A DNA stretch of 64,000 nucleotides from Liolophura sinensis. Its lineage: Eukaryota; Mollusca; Polyplacophora; Chitonida; Chitonidae. Under the pieces are notes generated by a model. That model saw nothing but the letters and a program-made list of their open reading frames with translations. It had not been told where the DNA came from and ran no database searches. A program made the position numbers and the translations under genes. Shown piece by piece: positions 5,651 to 61,600 of the stretch (position 1 is its first letter; every line of letters begins with the position of its first letter). The DNA lies in contig NC_088300.1 of the NCBI RefSeq assembly GCF_032854445.1, positions 38,842,458-38,906,457 on the forward strand, written 5' to 3'.

Positions 5651-5665
5651 ATTCATAAATTTGCT

Positions 5666-5825
5666 CACTATAATATTTCAGATGACCTTTCAGGTGAAAA
5701 ATAACCAGCAGGAGATAGAGGTTGTGGGTCTGTTTGCACTGGTTCACTATAATATTTCAGATGACCTTTCAGGTGAAAAATAACCAGCAGATGATGGAGG
5801 TTGTGGGTCTGTTTGCACTGGTTCA
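5666..5825. repeat. Tandem duplication, 79-bp unit x2
   Basis: Two nearly identical copies starting 'cactataatatttcagatg', with period 79, differ at only a few positions. No function is visible. Confidence 0.85.
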
Positions 5826-40415: not shown

Positions 40416-43400
40416 CTATCAACCAATGCAAAAAAAAAAGCAAATACATTAAGGTATAAAATATTTATGTCTTAAGAATGTGTTTAGCTGAGCACTGACA
40501 CCAGAAGATCTCTACCCAACAGCTTCCCAATCACAATGAAAAAATTCTTATAATTACATATTATACATGCTCTGGTCACTGATCTTCTCTATCATGTAAA
40601 TTGACACCCTTTTCCCACATCAAAACTTTCACTCCATCTCATGCTATACATGTCTGAGTCACTAACCTTCTCTATCATGTAAACTGACCTATTCCAGATT
40701 CACCCTACTCCCACATCAGAACTCTCATTCCATCACATACTATACATGTCCCAGTCACTAACCTTCCCTATCATGTAAACTGACTTATTCCAGGTTCACC
40801 CTACTCCCACATCAAAACTCTCATTCAATCACATACTACACATGTCCCGGTCACTAAACTTCCCTATCATTAAACTGATTTATTCCAGGTTCACCCTACT
40901 CCCACATCAAAATTCTCATTCAATCACATACTATACATGTCCCAGTCACTGACCTTCCCTATCATTAAACTGACTTATTCCTGGTTCACCCTACTCCCAC
41001 ATCAAAATTCTCATTCCATCACATACTATACATGTCCCAGTCACTGACCTTCCCTATCATGTAAACTGACTCATTCCTGGTTCACAGTACTCCCTCATCA
41101 AAACTCTTCATTCCATCACATCCTATACATGTCCCAGTCACTGACCTTCCCTATCATGTAAACTGACTCATTCCTGGTTCACAGTACTCCCACATCAAAA
41201 CTCTCATTCAATCACATACTATACATGTCCCAGTCACTGACCTTTCCTATCATGTAAACTGACTCATTCCTGGTTCACCCTACTCCTTCATCAAAATTCT
41301 CATTCGATCACATACTATACATGTCCCAGTCACTAACCTTCTCTATCATGTAAACTGACTCATTCCTGGTTCACAGTACTCCCTCATCAAAATTCTCATT
41401 CCATCACATACTATACATGTCCGGGTCACTGACCTTCCCTATCATTAAACTAACTCATTCCTGGTTCACCCTACTCCCACATCAAAACTCTCATTCAATC
41501 ACATACTATACATGTCCCAGTCACTAACCTTCTCTATCATGTAATCTGACTTATTCCTGGTTCACCCTACTCCCACAACAAAACTTTCACTCCATCACAT
41601 GCTATACATGTCTGAGTCACTAACCTTCCCTATCATGTAAACTGACCTATTCCAGGTTCACCGTACTCCCTCATCAAAACTCTCATTCCATCACATACTA
41701 TACATGTCCCAGTCACTGACCTTCCCTATCATGTAAACTGACTTATTCCAGGTTCACCCTACTCCCACATCAAAACTCTCATTCAATCACATACTATACA
41801 TGTCCCGGTCACTAACCTTCCCTATCATTAAACTGACTTATTCCTGGTTCACCGTACTCTCACATCAAAATTCTCATTCCATCACATACTATACATGTCC
41901 CAGTCACTGACCTTCCCTATCATTAAACTGACTTATTCCAGGTTCACCCAACTCCCACATCAAAATTCTCATTCCATCACATACTATACATGTCCCAGTC
42001 ACTGACCTTCCCTATCATGTAAACTGACTCATTCCTGGTTCACCGTATTCCCTCATCAAAACTCTCATTCAATCAAATACTATACATGTCCCAGTCACTA
42101 ACCTTCTCTATCATGTAAACTGACTTATTCCAGGTTCACCCTACTCCCACATCAAAATTCTCATTCAATCACATACTATACATGTCCCGGTCACTAACTT
42201 TCTCTATCATGTAAACTGACTTATTCCTGGTTCACCCTACTCCCACATCAAAATTCTCATTCCATCACATACTATACATGTCCCGGTCACTGACCTTCCC
42301 TATCATGTAAACTGACTCATTTCTGGTTCACCGTATTCCCTCATCAAAACTCTCATTCAATCACATACTATACATGTCCCGGTCACTAACCTTCCCTATC
42401 ATGTAAACTGACTTATTCCAGGTTCACCCTACTCCCACATCAAAATTCTCATTCAATCACATACTATACATGTCCCGGTCACTAACTTTCTGTATCATGT
42501 AAACTGACTTATTCCTGGTTCACCCTACTCCCACATCAAAATTCTCATTCCATCACATACTATACATGTCCCGGTCACTGACCTTCTCTATCATGTAAAC
42601 TGACTCATTCCTGGTTCACCGTATTCCCTCATCAAAACTCTCATTCAATCACATACTATACATGTCCCAGTCACTAACCTTCTCTATCAAGTAAACCGAC
42701 TTATTCCAGGTTCACCCTACTTCCACATCAGAACTCTCATTCCATCACATACTATACATGTCCCAGTCACTGACCTTCCCTATCATGTAATCTGACTCAT
42801 TCCTGGTTCACCCTACTCCCACATCAAAACTCTTCATTCCATCACATCCTATACATGTCCCGGTCACTGAACTTCTCTATCATGTAAACTGACTCATTCC
42901 TGGTTCACCGTACCCCCACATCAAAACTCTCATTCAATCACATACTATACATGTCCCAGTCACTAACCTTCTCTATCAAGTAAACCGACTTATTCCAGGT
43001 TCACCCTACTTCCACATCAGAACTCTCATTCCATCACATACTATACATGTCCCAGTCACTGACCTTCCCTATCATGTAATCTGACTCATTCCTGGTTCAC
43101 CCTACTCCCACATCAAAACTCTTCATTCCATCACATCCTATACATGTCCCGGTCACTGAACTTCTCTATCATGTAAACTGACTCATTCCTGGTTCACCGT
43201 ACCCCCACATCAAAACTCTCATTCAATCACATACTATACATGTCCCAGTCACTGACCTTCCCTATCATGTAAACTGACTCATTCCTGGTTCACCCTACTC
43301 CCTCATCAAAATTCTCATTCCATCACATACTATACATGTCCCAGTCACTGACCTTCCCTATCATTAAACTGACTCATTCCTGGTTCACCGTACTCCCACA

Positions 43401-46400
43401 TCAAAACTCTCATTCAATCACATACTATACATGTCCCAGTCACTAACCCTCACTATCATGTAAACTGACTTATTCCAGGTTCACCCTACTCCCACATCAA
43501 AACTCTCATTCAATCACATACTAAACATGTCCCGGTCACTGACCTTCCCTATCATTAAACTGACCTATTCCCGGTTCACCCTACTCCCACATAAGAACTC
43601 TCATTCCATCACATACTATACATGTCCCGGTCACTAACCCTCACTATCATGTAAACTGACTTATTTCTGGTTCACCCTACTCCCACATCAGAACTCTCAT
43701 TCCATCACATACTATACATGTCCCGGTCACAAACCTTCTCTATCATGTAAACTGACTTATTCCAGGTTCGCCCTACTCCCACATCAAAATTCTCATTCCA
43801 ACTGACCTTCTCTATCATGTAAACTGACTTATTCCTGGTTCACCCTACTCCCACATCAGAACTCTCATTCAATCACATACTATACATGTCCCGGTCACTA
43901 ACCTTCTCTATCATGTAAACTGACTTATTCCAGGTTCACCCTACTCCCACATCAGAACTCTCATTCCATCACATACTATACATGTCCCAGTCACTGACCT
44001 TCCCTATCATTAAACTGACTTATTCCAGGTTCACCCTACTCCCACATCAAAACTCTCATTCAATCACATACTATACATGTCCGGTCACTAACCTTCTCTA
44101 TCATTAAACTGACTTATTCCAGGTTCACCCTACTCCCACATCAAAATTCTCATTCCATCACATACTATACATGTCCCAGTCACTGACCTTCCCTATCATT
44201 AAACTGACTCATTCCTGGTTCACAGTACTCCCACATCAAAATTCTCATTCCATCACATACTATACATGTCCCGGTCACTAACCTTCCCTATCATGTAAAC
44301 TGACTTATTCCAGGTTCACCCTACTCCCACATCAAAACTCTCATTCAATCACATACTATACATGTCCCGGTCACTGACCTTCCCTATCATTAAACTGACC
44401 TATTCCCGGTTCACTCCTACTCCCACATAAGAACTCTCATTCCATCACATACTATACATGTCCCAGTCACTAACCCTCTCTATCATGTAAACTGACTTAT
44501 TCCAGGTTCACCCTACTCCCACATTAGAACTCTCATTCCATCACATACTATACATGTCCGGGTCACTGACCTTCCCTATCATTAAACTGACTTATTCCAG
44601 GTTCACCCTACTCCCACATCAAAACTCTCATTCCATCACATACTATACATGTCCGGGTCACTGACCTTCTCTATCATTAAACTGATTTATTCCTGGTTCA
44701 CCCTACTCCCACATCAAAATTCTCATATCCATCACATACTATACATGTCCCAGTCACTGACCTTCCCTATCATTAAACTGACTCATTCCTGGTTCACAGT
44801 ACTCCCACATCAAAATTCTCATTCCATCACATACTATACATGTCCCGGTCACTAACCTTCCCTATCATTAAACTGACTCATTCCAGGTTCACCGTACTCC
44901 CACATCAAAACTCTCATTCAATCACATACTATACATGTCCCGGTCACTAACCTTCCCTATCATGTAATCTGACTTATTCCTGGTTCACCCTACTCCCACA
45001 TCAAAATTCTCATTCAATCACATACTATACATGTCCCAGTCACTAACCTTCCCTATCATGTAAACTGACTTATTCCAGGTTCACCCTACTCCCACATCAA
45101 AACTCTCATTCAATCACATACTATACATGTCCCAGTCACTAACCTTCCCTATCATTAACTGACTTCCAGGTTCACCCTACTCCCACATCAAAATTCTCAT
45201 TCCATCACATACTATACATGTCCCGGTCACTAACCTTCTCTATCATGTAAACTGACTCATTCCTGGTTCACCGTATTCCCTCATCAAAACTCTCATTCAA
45301 TCACATACTATACATGTCCCGGTCACTGACCTTTCCCATCATGTAAACTGACTCATTCCAGGTTCAACCCTACTCCCACATCAAAATTCTCATTCCATCA
45401 CATAGTATACATGTCCCAGTCACTGACCTTCCCTATCATGTAAACCTGACTCATTCCTGGTTCACTCTACTCCCACATCAAAACTCTTCATTCCATCACA
45501 TACTATACATGTCCCAGTTACTGACCTTCCCTATCATGTAAACTGACTCATTCCTGGTTCACCGTACTACTCCCACATCAAAACTCTCATTCCATCACAT
45601 ACTATACATGTCCCAGTCACTAACCTTCTTTATCATGTAATCTGACTTATTCCTGGTTCACTCTACTCCCACATCAAAACTCTCATTCATTCTCATTCTT
45701 GAACACAAAATATTCAAGTCTTGAAGATATTATCAGTCACAATACTAGTAATCCTTGCTCAAAACTGTCTTCACATGTATTTAAGCAAATTGCACTTTGG
45801 TTACAGTGGTGCCAAGGCACAGTCTTTATTCTTTACCTGCATTTCTAGCTGTTTTTGTTGAAGTTTATCCAACTGATCCAGCCTGTCCTGGGTAAGTGTA
45901 GAAAACTGATCAGGTACAGGTTTCTCCAAGTATTTTTCGTGTCTGCCCACTTCTGTAGCACCTTCACCTTTCTCACTTTTCAGGTCCGATATACTTTTCA
46001 AGATCTCAGCCATCTTTTCTTTCCAAATCCTGCTGAGCCTGGAACAATAATCTTCAGAACTGTACTCATTTTAGATATTTGGAAATAATATCAGTAAGAA
46101 TAAGACAGTTTACAGATCTACACTGGATTCCACCAAGAATCAAATCCGTGCCACAAAGCTAACTGTCTGAATAGCACTAGACTGGATACATTATTTCCCA
46201 GCAGTTTTGAAGACAGTGTTCTAAAAGACATTAATAGACAAAGAGAAAGTAGGTCAATCAAGCTGACCTAATCATCTAATCATGTGTATCTAATCATGTG
46301 TGAGGGGAATGTCAGGATCAGTAGAAAGCGAACGTGCCAAATATGATTTAAGTGAAAGTGACCCAGGAGGTAGTGAAAAGTGTTCAGCAGAGAAAATAAA

Positions 46401-49400: not shown

Positions 49401-52400
49401 AATTACACACTGTTAATGACCGTCACAAAAGATAAACCGTACAGTAGTCTTTTCTCTTTTTTCAAATAAGGACCCAATTTTAAAATCCTGGATATAGCCC
49501 TGTGGGGATTTACAGACTACATATTAGCACATACATGTACCTCTTCGTAAAACGATCCTTGATGGTCTTCTGTTTGTCTGAGAGCTGACAGTGAATGATA
49601 TGCAGATCTGAAGATTGTCTGTAGCATTCAGCAGCTGACTGACCCACCACAGGGGCACCTTGTTTGAGTGCGGGCACATGCATCTGAAATGTACATGAAC
49701 AGGAACTTCATAACTAGAAAGAATAACTCATGACGACAACACAACGCTTTTATCTTGATTATGTTTTAAGCATGTTCATGCATTCTCTTTTTTTTTTTTT
49801 TTTTTTTTACATTTTTGGGCGCCTTGTTTGAAAGTCTGGACTATGCGATGTGAGATTCACTAGCAAATAAAAGCATCCATGTAAGGACGTTCTTATCGCA
49901 CCTCTCATCCCATCACATCAAAGAATTCAACAATGTGTCACGTGGCATAACTGCCCTTTTTTTTCTTCTGTATCTACACATGCTGGATATAGTGATGTTC
50001 TTGAAATATGAAGTTGTTTCTGGGCTGTACTGTATTTTATTTATTTATTTATTTATTTGACTGGTGTTTTACGCCGTACTCAAGAACATTTCACTTATAC
50101 GACGGTGGCCAGCATTATGATGGGTGGAAACCGGGCACAGCCCGGAGGAAACCCACGACCATCCACAGGTTGCTGACAGACCTTCCCACGTACGGCCGGA
50201 GAGGAAGCCAGCACGAGGCTGTACTGTACGATCATCAAAGAGTTATTCACCCTTACATACGTGTACATACTTTACCATCATCAAATAATTATTCACGCAT
50301 ATATACTTACTTTACCATCATCAAATAATTATTCATGCTTTAATACTACTTTATACTTTACCATCCTAAAAGAGCCATTCATGCTTTATATACTATAATA
50401 CTTACTTTACGATCGTTTGAATCATTCATTTACTTACTTTACCACAAGGCTGAAACTGTCCTGTGCTCAAAACATCGCTGTGCCTTGACTGGTCATCTTC
50501 TGAGTGAGACAACTCACTGGAGGGCTGAGTGGATGGGGCTGTTATTGTCACCAAGCCTCTGAGGAACATTCACGATCTCTGCTTGATCAGGTGAGTCTAT
50601 CTTCACCGACACATCTGTAAAATAAGGCAGATTAGTAGACCCAAGACTACTGTAGCAGGTATCCAGTTTGACAGCAGTACAATGAACATGTACTTGCACA
50701 CTAATTTATAGATTTTTTTTAGATTTTTTTAGATATTTTTAGATTTTTTTTAGATATTTTTAGATTTATCCATATCTAAACTTAAAACTCTGCATGAAAG
50801 ACAGGAAAGTCAGCTTTGTGCAGTTTTCTGAACAGATAGCTGTAGTAAACTTAGTAAAATACATTGCATTCTTGAGAACCTGTGTAACACCTCATCTGTC
50901 AGCCAAACCTCTTCAAATGAAGCCTGAATCAAACCAAGATACATGCACATTGGAACATCACACCTCATCTGTCAGCCAAACATCTTGAAATAAAGCCTGA
51001 ATCAAACCAAGAGACACATGTACATTGGAACATCACACCTCATCAGTCAGCCAAACCTCTTGAAATAAAGCCTGAATCAAACCAAGAGACACATGTACAT
51101 TGGAACATCACACCTCATCAGTCAACCAAACCTCTTAAAATGAAGCCTGAATCAAACCAAGAGATACATGCACATTGGAACATCACACCTCATCTGTCCG
51201 CCAAACATCTTGAAATAAAGCCTGAATCAAACCAAGAGACACATGTACATTGGAACATCACACCTCATCAGTCAGCCAAACCTCTTCAAATGAAGCCTGA
51301 ATCAAACCAGGAGATACATGTACATGGGAACATCACATTTCACAAGTCAGCCAAACCTCTTGAAATAAAGCCTGAATCAAACCAGGAGATACATGTACAT
51401 GGAAACATCACACCTCATCTGTCAGCCAAACATCTTGAAATAAAGCCTGAATCAAACCAGGAGACACATGTAAATGGGAACATCACACCTCATCAGTCAG
51501 CCAAACATCTTGAAATAAAGCCTGAATCAAACCAAGAGATACATGTACATTGGAACATCACACCTCATCTGTCAGCCAAACATCTTGAAATGAAGCCTGA
51601 ATCAAACCAAGAGATACATGTACATGGGAACATCACACCTCTTCTGTCAGCCAAACATCTTGAAACAAAGCCTGAATGAAACCAGAAGATACATGTACAT
51701 GGGAACATCACATTTCATGAGTCAGCCAAACCTCTTGAAATAAAGCCTGAATCAAACTAAGAGATACATGTACATGTGAACATCACAACTCATCAGTCAG
51801 CCAATCCTCTTAAAATGAAGCCTGAATGAAACCAGGAGATACATGTACATGGAAACATCACACCTCATCTGTCAGCCAAACCTCTGAATATTAAATCTGA
51901 ATCAAACCAGCAGGAGATACATGTGATCATCACTCCTCATCTGTCAGCCAAGGACAAGAAGTGTGAATCAAACCAGTAGGAGTTATATGGGAAAATCTCA
52001 CTTCATTAGTCAACTAACCCTCTGGACATAAAGCCCAAATCAAATCAGCAGGAGTCATATAGAAACATCCCACTTCATAGTCAGCTATCCCTGTGCACAT
52101 GCAGCCTGAATCAAACCAGCGGGAGTTATATGGGAAAATCTCACTTCATTAGTCAGCTAACCCTTTGGACATGAAGCCCGAATCAAACCAGCAAGAGGTA
52201 ATTGTATGTAAACACTATAGCCACATTGGTCGATTGACACTGTACATGTGTCATAATACATTATCATTATAAACTCAAACCAGTCTAAACTGAAAGATAG
52301 AAACCATACACCAACACCAATGCTAACGCTGACACTTTCCATGATTTAATATCATCACAACATCTTGTCTTACTTGGTAAAAGAGAGCTAAAAATGACAC

Positions 52401-57890: not shown

Positions 57891-58634
57891 ATACATGTGT
57901 CTATTGAGGAACAGTTTATTTTCACTGCATTTAGCAATTTATAAATGCAATCATTTTCTTGATGTTTACAGGTAAATACAGTAGATCTTATAAAAATCTA
58001 ATCAGGCAATTATATATTATTATTTTGGCTTTTAAAACTCCAAGCTCAAATCACTGTTCAGATGATCAAGATCCGTACAGCAATTACCTACTGATGATTT
58101 GAATAGTACATAGTCACAGTTAATCATGATGTCCAAAACATAACATTGAAACGTGCACACGCGAAGAGTAGTTTCGGTACTGTCAGAAGCCAATGGTACT
58201 GTATTTGTGTGTCTGTTGTACATAACTCATTTTGGAAAACTGCTCGAAAATAATTCTGCCTCACAACATGTTGATGGATCAGATAAAAATCAGAACTCTA
58301 AAATAACTCAGGACAAATGTAATTTCTTGGCGCATACAAGCTATTGATATCAATTAAACAAATTATGCAGTTATCTTTATTTATATTTTATAGTAAACAT
58401 TCATGGACATTATATTAACTCTCTACATTTGAGAGACCTTTTATAAATTGCTAAGTCTGAAACCTGGATGTGTAAAGTAATATCTTTATATTTATTTTTT
58501 GTCTCTAACTCTTAAATCAAATCTCATAATCTTGGAAACACCTTCCCTTCTAAACAGTACATTAGATATGTGATTTGTCATATTGGTTGAAAGTTTACCA
58601 AGTGTTCTTTCTCCATTTGCCTGGCAGTCTAGAG

Positions 58635-58679
58635 ATGGCTCAGCCTCAGTCATTGGACACAGAAGCCACTGTGAAACAG
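58635..58679 (+). CDS. TIMM9: TIMM9 first coding exon
   Basis: An acceptor (ctccatttgcctggcag) ends at 58627, so seven untranslated bases precede the ATG and a non-coding exon must exist upstream. It encodes [15 protein letters not shown] and ends in phase 0 at GTGAAACAG|GTTAGT, a donor with a non-consensus T at +3. Confidence 0.93.
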
Positions 58680-61600
58680 GTTAGTGTAGTGGTATTGTAG
58701 CAGGTGTGTGAAAGACAGGTGAGTGTGAACAGGTGTATGTGAAACAAGCGAGTGTATAGGTTAATATGTCAGGTGTGTGTGAAACAAGAGAGTGTATAGG
58801 TTAATATCTTAGGTGTGTGTGAAACAGGTAAGTGTATAGGTATCATGTTAGGTGTGTGTGAAACAGGTGAGTGTGTATCCAGTCAGGTGCGTGTGCGTGA
58901 AACAAGTGTATTAGGTATCATGTCAGGTGTGCATGAAACAAGTGTATTAGGTATCACGTCAGGTGTGCTTGAAACAAGTGTATTAGGTATTATATCAGGT
59001 GTGTGAAACAGGTGAGTGTAAGTATCATGTCAGGTGTGTGTGAAACAAGTGAGTGTAGGTATCATGTCAGGTGTGTGTGAAACAGCTGAGTGTAGGTATC
59101 ATGTCGTATATATGAAACAGTGACAGGTTCATATAAATCGTCATATTCCGTCCGTTGATTGAATAGAAAACTCAATAACTGTTTATAATTATTCAAATTG
59201 AGGGGGAGGGGGGTTGTTGAAAGAAATTTTACATAAACTCAGTTTGAACATATCCAAAGTTCCACGAAGCAGCCTGTTTGCGTTACAACTTATCTCCCTT
59301 CTGTGGAAATTTTAGATTTAAGAAGGCAATTTTTGGAAGCGGAGGGGCGTATGAAATCAAACATGAAACGTAGTAAGCTTCTTTAGTCTGTTAAATCGAT
59401 CCTCGCAAATAATTTGACCTACTTTGGCCTCCGATCATTCTGTTTTTAACATTAGCCTTTTGCGAGTGACTGCATGTGAGCGCACAAGGTCTAACTGGTT
59501 TCCTACCCCTGATGTCCGGTGGCGCTAATATCTTCAGCTCCTTTCAAGGCAAGCACACAGTTAGCATCTAGGTTTCATTTTCGGGGGTCTGAAGTTTGAT
59601 AAATGGATTTGAACATTGAAATTAAAATCTTCTTTGTCAGATATGAACATTAACCAGCGACATCGATTCGCTATAAAAGCGTGGTTTTTATTCACAGACT
59701 GAACGTGGAGAACTGTATCTGACAGGACTTCAGCCGTTCAGGCTGGTGAGATCCAGCAGTATTCATCGTGGAAAAAGAGACAACACACTGATCAATGTTT
59801 TTCATCTCTCTAAATATGTTGCCTCTCAATTTAAAGATCATTATAGTTAATACTCCATGGGGTAAATTACTATTTGTGGGTCTTTTTAATTTTCTCATTA
59901 CCGTGGCTGATTTTCTGAGTAAATTTCAAATCAGATTTCGTTTTGAACTGCTCATGTTGATTGAAATCTTCGTTTATTTTGACAAGTAAGGCTAATATTT
60001 CAAGAGAATTTAGATAATTCAGAGCATTCATCTGGATGCACTATTCAGATTAGGTTCTAGTATACATGTAAGGTGTTGCATATATTTTGATTTTCTTAAA
60101 TGTTTTTTTTTTCTTTAGATCATTTTTGACATGTCCTTTTACAGACTGAAAGTTACAAGATCACATATTCCATAAGCCACGAATGCATGACCATTCTGTC
60201 TTGATTCACGATTGAATATTTTCTAAAAGTGATTTTACACTTCACTGTGTCGGCATCCTGTAATACATATGATAATAACCGCAATGTGTGCCGATTGTCA
60301 GTTTGCAGTATCAGTTAGGAGGACGGCTTGAGTTTTTATATAGGCAGTGATAATTTCTTTAATCAATAAAGTATGGTATCATACAAAAATATTAAATTTT
60401 TTTGAACATGTCGAAACAAAAAAAAAAATCCATTTCAGCTGAAAGAAAAACTCAGTTTTGCCCAGAAAGTGTTGGTCAGTACGTGAAAAAATGATTTATA
60501 TGAACCCCTGGAGTATAAATAGATGTTGTGTGGATGGGGAGTAGTTTCCCGAGGAGAGGCCAGCTTACAGCTGTTGTTGGGAATTTCTCCCCTACACATG
60601 TACCTTTAGTACTCTGATTGTGATACATGTATTCCACATACATTTATTTCACTCGAGTCATATTGACGTTGAATTCGAGGTCACTGAAAGGCCACGCATG
60701 AAGTAAAAATCATGTTACAAAGTTTCAGAGAAAACTTATTTCAAATTTCAAAAAACTTGGTATATATTATCCTCTACACTGAGGTTGCAAACTGGACAAA
60801 CATTGGTCTGAAGATCTATGTTTTGCAGAAGTTGCAGGAAAATTGGTTGCTCACAGTTTCTCATTTGTTCCATGCATGTCGTATTGAAGTACCTGGAGAA
60901 GATCAAGGTCACCGAAAGGTCACTAATGTGCTAAAAATCTTCTTACAGGGTTTCCCAGTTATTGGTTCTGTCTTCACTGTTAAAGGTTGCGAACTGAACG
61001 AGTTTTGATGAACATGATGCAACGGTCAGGGTCATGCCAATGTTGAAACATCTGGAGGCTGCTTTTAATGATCAGTGTGTGACTATCATTTACAAATTTA
61101 TTTTCTGATAACTTATGGAAGCCATTTTTCTTTCAGTTCAAGGAGTTCCTATTGTCATACAACAAACTTTCTGAGATGTGTTTTAATGACTGTGCTACTG
61201 ATTTCACAACAAGAAAAGTTTTAGATTCAGAGGTAAGCGAGAATGTAGCCGTGCTTAGGTGTGGGGATGTTTTTTTTCTTTTTCAGTATTTTTTTTACTT
61301 TCTGCTTTTAAAAGTGAAACAATTATATATATGCTTGTTTCTTTAACTGGTAGACAGAGACAGGGTATAAATTCATAAATTAACATAATTACCCCAAGGT
61401 TGCATGGCCCAATGGGAGATTAGGTGTCAGTTGTGTTTAAGGCCATTATCAAGAATATTTCACTTCTGTGGCAAGAATCATAGTTTTTAGGCGAGGAAAC
61501 TGAAAGTAACCAAGAGGAAATCAGCATGCCTCTGCACACAGGCAGACCAGCAGAAGCTGGAATTGAACATGCAACCGCAGAACCCACAACAGGCTTTGCC

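Follow-up and report, generated by a model that had tools for sequence, protein, structure and literature searches.

A minisatellite at the first coding exon of TIMM9 in the chiton Liolophura sinensis, probably seeded by the exon–intron junction

The TIMM9 gene of the chiton Liolophura sinensis carries, immediately behind its first coding exon, a tandem array whose units repeat the exon–intron junction. As judged from the sequence, this array is probably a minisatellite of the mirage type that was seeded by the junction, with the first donor being used for splicing and the copies inside the intron being close to neutral. The kind of repeat is already known, as the mirages of lancelets; for its occurrence in a mollusc no earlier report was recognised in the open-licence literature searched, and the TIMM9 array is part of a wider set in the same genome. 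The array was analysed within a window of 64,000 nt, the whole stretch of DNA under study, taken from C6:38842458–38906457 in the 609-Mb assembly of L. sinensis. This genome was published, according to the accessible part of the report, as that of Liolophura japonica (PMC11068029), and the species name has since been corrected from L. japonica to L. sinensis (PMC12441733).

The identity of the gene was determined from its predicted product. The spliced frame of three coding exons (58635–58679 for the coding part of the first; Table 1 for the other two) yielded a protein of 89 residues, for which the match to human TIM9 (2bsk_A) gave an E value of 5.8e-28, that to yeast Tim9 9.3e-16 and that to human Tim10B 1.6e-6. 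The ranking of Tim9 above the other small Tims identifies the gene as TIMM9. A good predicted 3' splice site was detected upstream of the ATG, ending at 58627, 7 nt before it. Because of this predicted acceptor, the ATG exon is probably an internal exon of 52 nt, and the array-bearing intron is probably not the first of the gene. The sequence-only reading, made earlier on the same DNA, had spoken of the first coding exon and of intron 1; the former designation stands, while the latter probably does not.

Table 1. Features of the TIMM9 locus (window positions) and junction arrays detected elsewhere in the genome. The slash marks the exon–intron junction or its copy.
Feature	Positions	Strand	Basis or property	Exonic stretch in repeat
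TIMM9 first coding exon	58628–58679	+	ATG at 58635; frame and TIM9 match; acceptor predicted from sequence
Repeat unit 0, junction TGTGAAACAG/GTTAGT (GT of the real donor at 58680) plus the intronic bases next to it	58670–58706	+	nhmmer, units 2–11
In-frame TAG on read-through of the real donor	58698–58700	+	upstream of all four strong copies
Intronic array, units 1–12 (31–40 nt each, last one truncated)	58707–59130	+	TRF, by hand
CAG/GTGAGT copy, GT at 58719	58716–58724	+	U1 energy −14.1
CAG/GTAAGT copy, GT at 58828	58825–58833	+	U1 energy −14.0
CAG/GTGAGT copy, GT at 58867	58864–58872	+	U1 energy −14.1
CAG/GTGAGT copy, GT at 59012	59009–59017	+	U1 energy −14.1
TIMM9 second coding exon	61137–61232	+	spliced frame
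TIMM9 third coding exon, including stop codon	61769–61897	+	spliced frame
L006	C1		EGF exon, E 1.3e-5; 96-nt unit
L010			RNA polymerase III RPC1, E 1.3e-9	32 nt
L015			ABCC transporter, E 6e-17	44 nt
L016			sodium/glucose cotransporter, E 5.5e-18
L017			GMC oxidoreductase, E 6.8e-10	0 nt
L020			SNF2-type helicase, E 1.8e-18 (presumably BTAF1/Mot1-like)	21 nt
L022			alpha-L-fucosidase, E 1e-10	3 nt
L023			iron-hydrogenase-like, E 4.4e-13 (presumably CIAO3-like)	35 nt
L024			2-oxoglutarate dehydrogenase, E 1.5e-20	49 nt

The end of the first coding exon was confirmed to be TGTGAAACAG/GTTAGT, and GTGAAACAG is the junction word of the array. The last ten bases of the exon form part of repeat unit 0. 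A hand count that starts from the exon end as unit 0 gave 13 units, of which the last is truncated near 59130; TRF detected 10 copies with a period of 36–40 between 58730 and 59105. The repeat reported earlier as about eleven units is thus real, but its number has to be corrected to 12 intronic copies by the hand count, the truncated one included. The full CAG/GTRAGT is present in four of these 12 units, and one more was found in the window outside the array, at 50591. A weaker second donor-like word, CAG/GTGTGT, which the sequence-only reading had passed over, occurs at five places within the array. Units 0, 1 and 12, at the edges, are the most diverged. Inspection of the unit showed no polypyrimidine tract, and the idea that the array serves recursive splicing or contains new exons was therefore dropped.

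Homology of the repeat with the junction was observed on both of its sides. The window holds six occurrences of the exonic word TGTGAAACAG, with an expectation of 0.36; four lie in the intronic array, one ends the exon and one is elsewhere. When the nhmmer model was made of units 2–11 only, the exon end was recovered as the 11th match (12.8 bits, E 0.01), in a register that sits exactly on the TIMM9 junction; the next matches were unit 1 (E 1.2) and then the first one outside the array (E 2.3). On the intronic side, none of the window's 22 other donor-like sites fits the unit as well as the tail past the donor word does, and an equally good fit was obtained in 74 of 20,000 shuffles; by itself this tail match is modest, good but not overwhelming. 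The exonic letters of the repeat encode V-K-Q, and human TIM9 has I-K-Q and yeast Tim9 K-Q at the same place. Since K-Q is kept in human and yeast, it is apparently the protein that constrains the exon end, and the array would have been copied from the exon. Search of the genome with the whole array, in which very common words were skipped, gave one place only. Altogether, the in-register homology, the conservation of KQ, the single genomic place and the 10 shared exonic bases lend good support to the earlier proposal that the array has grown out of the exon–intron junction.

Other arrays were sought by a genome query for three CAGGTRAGT words 15–45 nt apart, with the backward word as control. 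The triple donor word was found 996 times versus 249 for the backward word, and the single donor word 19,904 times versus 7,585, so that the donor excess per single word is about 1.5-fold in these clustered counts. An excess as small as this does not require arrays to be born preferentially at junctions, and no such role of donors is claimed; arrays have arisen at many sites, a part of them falling on exon ends. Among the matches listed, 16 distinct donor-word arrays were recognised, all on C1 below 18.85 Mb, and the stretches of all 16 were examined; this number means at least 16 for that part of C1, and TIMM9, L006, L016 and L017, which were found by other routes, stand outside it. In six of the 16 among the matches listed (L010, L015, L020 and L022–L024), the array starts at the 3' end of an exon or within that end, and a homologue of the exon was recognised. 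L025 is likely to be another junction array, with no homologue found for its exon, and L012 and L013, which look junction-like but gave no homologue and were scored as non-junction, are possible ones; for seven of the 16, no junction start was seen by eye. Four places chosen for likeness to the TIMM9 unit gave three more junction arrays (L006, L016 and L017), and the examined stretch of L018 was not clearly a junction array. Nine further donor-unit arrays, on C1, C7 and C13, were thus observed at or beside the 3' ends of exons with homologues (L006, L010, L015, L016, L017, L020 and L022–L024).

For the backward word, 19 distinct control arrays among the matches listed, from C1–C8, were inspected by eye, and none started at an exon 3' end. 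The contrast of 6 of 16 donor arrays with 0 of 19 control arrays among the matches listed (Fisher, 0.005) arises partly by construction, because the donor arrays were picked by the donor word; moreover, open frames of the controls were judged by eye only, those of the donor arrays also through Pfam or PDB, and the donor arrays all came from C1 below 18.85 Mb, the controls from C1–C8. One control array (L037:664–966, 43-bp units) seems to adjoin an Ig-like exon on its acceptor side and is perhaps an acceptor-type mirage. Within the window, 13 other arrays were inspected by eye and none lay on a junction. A 5.1-kb minisatellite of 96-bp units was observed at 40605–45696, starting, on the minus strand, about 150 nt past an exon-like stretch that ends CAG/GTAAAG, and two 79-bp copies of 96% identity with acceptor-like TTTCAG words lie at 5665–5825, just after a long G run. 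Eight adjacent molluscan haemocyanin beta-sandwich domains were also noted at C8:37880506–37891931, where every domain lies in an open frame longer than 400 aa.

The closest known system is that of the lancelet mirages, minisatellite-like repeats of exon–intron boundaries described for Adh3 and the globins BflGb6 and BflGb9; in the accessible part of that report, length and somatic instability are given for them, and the data on Adh3 and the globins are taken there as a sign that the repeats leave regular splicing undisturbed (PMC3087553). TnC and PGBD5 were added to the mirage genes in another report, with splicing again said to be undisturbed in the part of the report at hand (PMC3902484). 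Like a lancelet mirage, the TIMM9 unit runs across the exon–intron boundary, with 10 exonic bases in common, and splice signals are carried by many but not all of its units (4 of 12); diverged edges, as found here, are also mentioned in the accessible part of the lancelet report (PMC3087553). The host differs, being a mollusc here, and the instability and splicing reports belong to the lancelet, whereas the TIMM9 array is known from one assembly. No mirage in a mollusc was recognised in the open-licence literature searched, mostly at the level of titles and abstract openings. Internal tandem repeats at exon–intron boundaries of human duplicated genes (PMC2812944) and intron gain via duplication of splice signals (PMC3087553) likewise involve tandem duplication at such boundaries. 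These reports, in their accessible parts, deal with new introns or alternative splicing, whereas the TIMM9 array is proposed to lie inside an intron taken as older.

We examined the strength of the donors by pairing with U1. The chiton U1 gene starts ATACTTACCTG; a tandem cluster of U1 snRNA genes with a period of about 2 kb is located at C10:30033968–30140539 and contributes to the 41 U1 matches found genome-wide. The real donor at 58680, with T at +3, gave a duplex energy of −10.1 and ranked fifth among 92 GT sites, behind the four complete CAG/GTRAGT copies (−14.1 to −14.0), as had been proposed from inspection. At least four downstream copies outpair the gene's own donor in 6 of the 11 junction arrays measured, in L016 by only 0.3 kcal/mol. 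Reading past the real TIMM9 donor meets a TAG as the seventh codon, in agreement with the earlier prediction of a truncating TAG within ten codons. Read-through to any of the four strong copies would give a peptide of 21 residues, and splicing there would place the stop 114 to 407 nt ahead of the last junction. A stop at such a distance before the last junction is expected to trigger nonsense-mediated decay.

Donor strength alone predicts use of the copies, which is a point against the preferred reading and in favour of active decoys: the copies would compete for U1, some transcripts would gain the TAG and undergo decay, as the position of the stop would permit, and the length of the array would tune TIM9 output. 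A precedent for donor use exists in human IFI6 (6-16), whose minisatellite with multiple splice donors was reportedly described by Turri in 1995. In the accessible part of a later source, two downstream repeat units of IFI6 serve as donors, giving three mRNAs (PMC4526556). A tandem repeat with several donors just 3' of an exon is common to IFI6, as there described, and TIMM9, but the IFI6 units are used as donors, whereas the TIMM9 copies are known from sequence and their use would truncate the protein. Against decoys stand the undisturbed splicing reported for lancelet mirages, as far as the accessible parts of the reports go (PMC3087553, PMC3902484), and the presence of the full word in just 4 of the 12 intronic units.

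Conservation of the copies bears on the same question, since copies that are used and harmful should be purged, and useful ones preserved. The donor GT is retained in 84% of copies in seven junction arrays versus 82% in eight other arrays (p 0.73), and the full donor word in 59% versus 63% (p 0.78); the two groups were also not distinguishable in how far donor columns depart from the rest (p 0.28). This is a small sample, in which L025 was counted as a junction array without an exon homologue, L019/L014, a single array with a consensus lacking the donor word, was excluded to leave 8 of 9 other arrays, and two of these eight, L012 and L013, may be junction arrays. As the donor words of junction arrays, in this small sample, are neither purged nor preserved in comparison with those of other arrays, they are best read as splice-neutral by-products, and decoy use in TIMM9 appears unlikely.

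A still less probable reading is that the array arose independently of the exon and came to lie next to it, the common junction word being due to chance or a short overlap. The modest tail match would agree with this, and a 19-mer of the unit is also found exactly on C1, in L006. The homology, however, spans the junction in register, and the C1 copies come from another exon junction: the EGF exon of L006 also ends TGTGAAACAG, and the rest of its 96-nt unit is unlike that of TIMM9. With at most one mismatch, all 13 matches of the unit pattern fell in TIMM9 (8) or L006 (5), and the search with the whole array, which skips very common words, gave no second place. The genome searches with the array and the unit pattern likewise lent no support to a mobile or dispersed source of the TIMM9 unit.

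The suggestion that the copies are back-up donors, which rescue splicing upon loss of the real donor, can practically be dismissed for TIMM9 despite the strong consensus of four of them, because the in-frame TAG precedes all four and none could restore the protein, and only one of the 136 CAGGTRAGT copies over 11 junction arrays, in the fucosidase-like gene, would keep the frame open.

We thus favour a minisatellite seeded by the TIMM9 junction. A segment of about 37 bp across the exon–intron junction would have been tandemly duplicated into the intron, and the duplicated units may then have been copied, shortened and homogenised in the manner of minisatellites. The exon-proximal donor at 58680 is most likely the one used, and the intronic copies would be removed with the intron in spite of their better match to U1, being close to neutral. 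The array would be one of several in a minisatellite-rich chiton genome, some of which may have begun on exon ends.

The finding would extend mirages from lancelets to a mollusc, where they recur in conserved genes such as those for RNA polymerase III RPC1 and 2-oxoglutarate dehydrogenase. Tentatively, we also suggest that the chiton junction arrays form a genome-wide class independent of the lancelet ones, in which the spliceosome takes the exon-proximal copy regardless of strength. If this is true, conserved genes hold naturally occurring sets of donors that compete with one another and are often identical. The junction-array genes with stronger downstream copies would offer a direct test of donor strength against exon nearness in the choice of splice sites.
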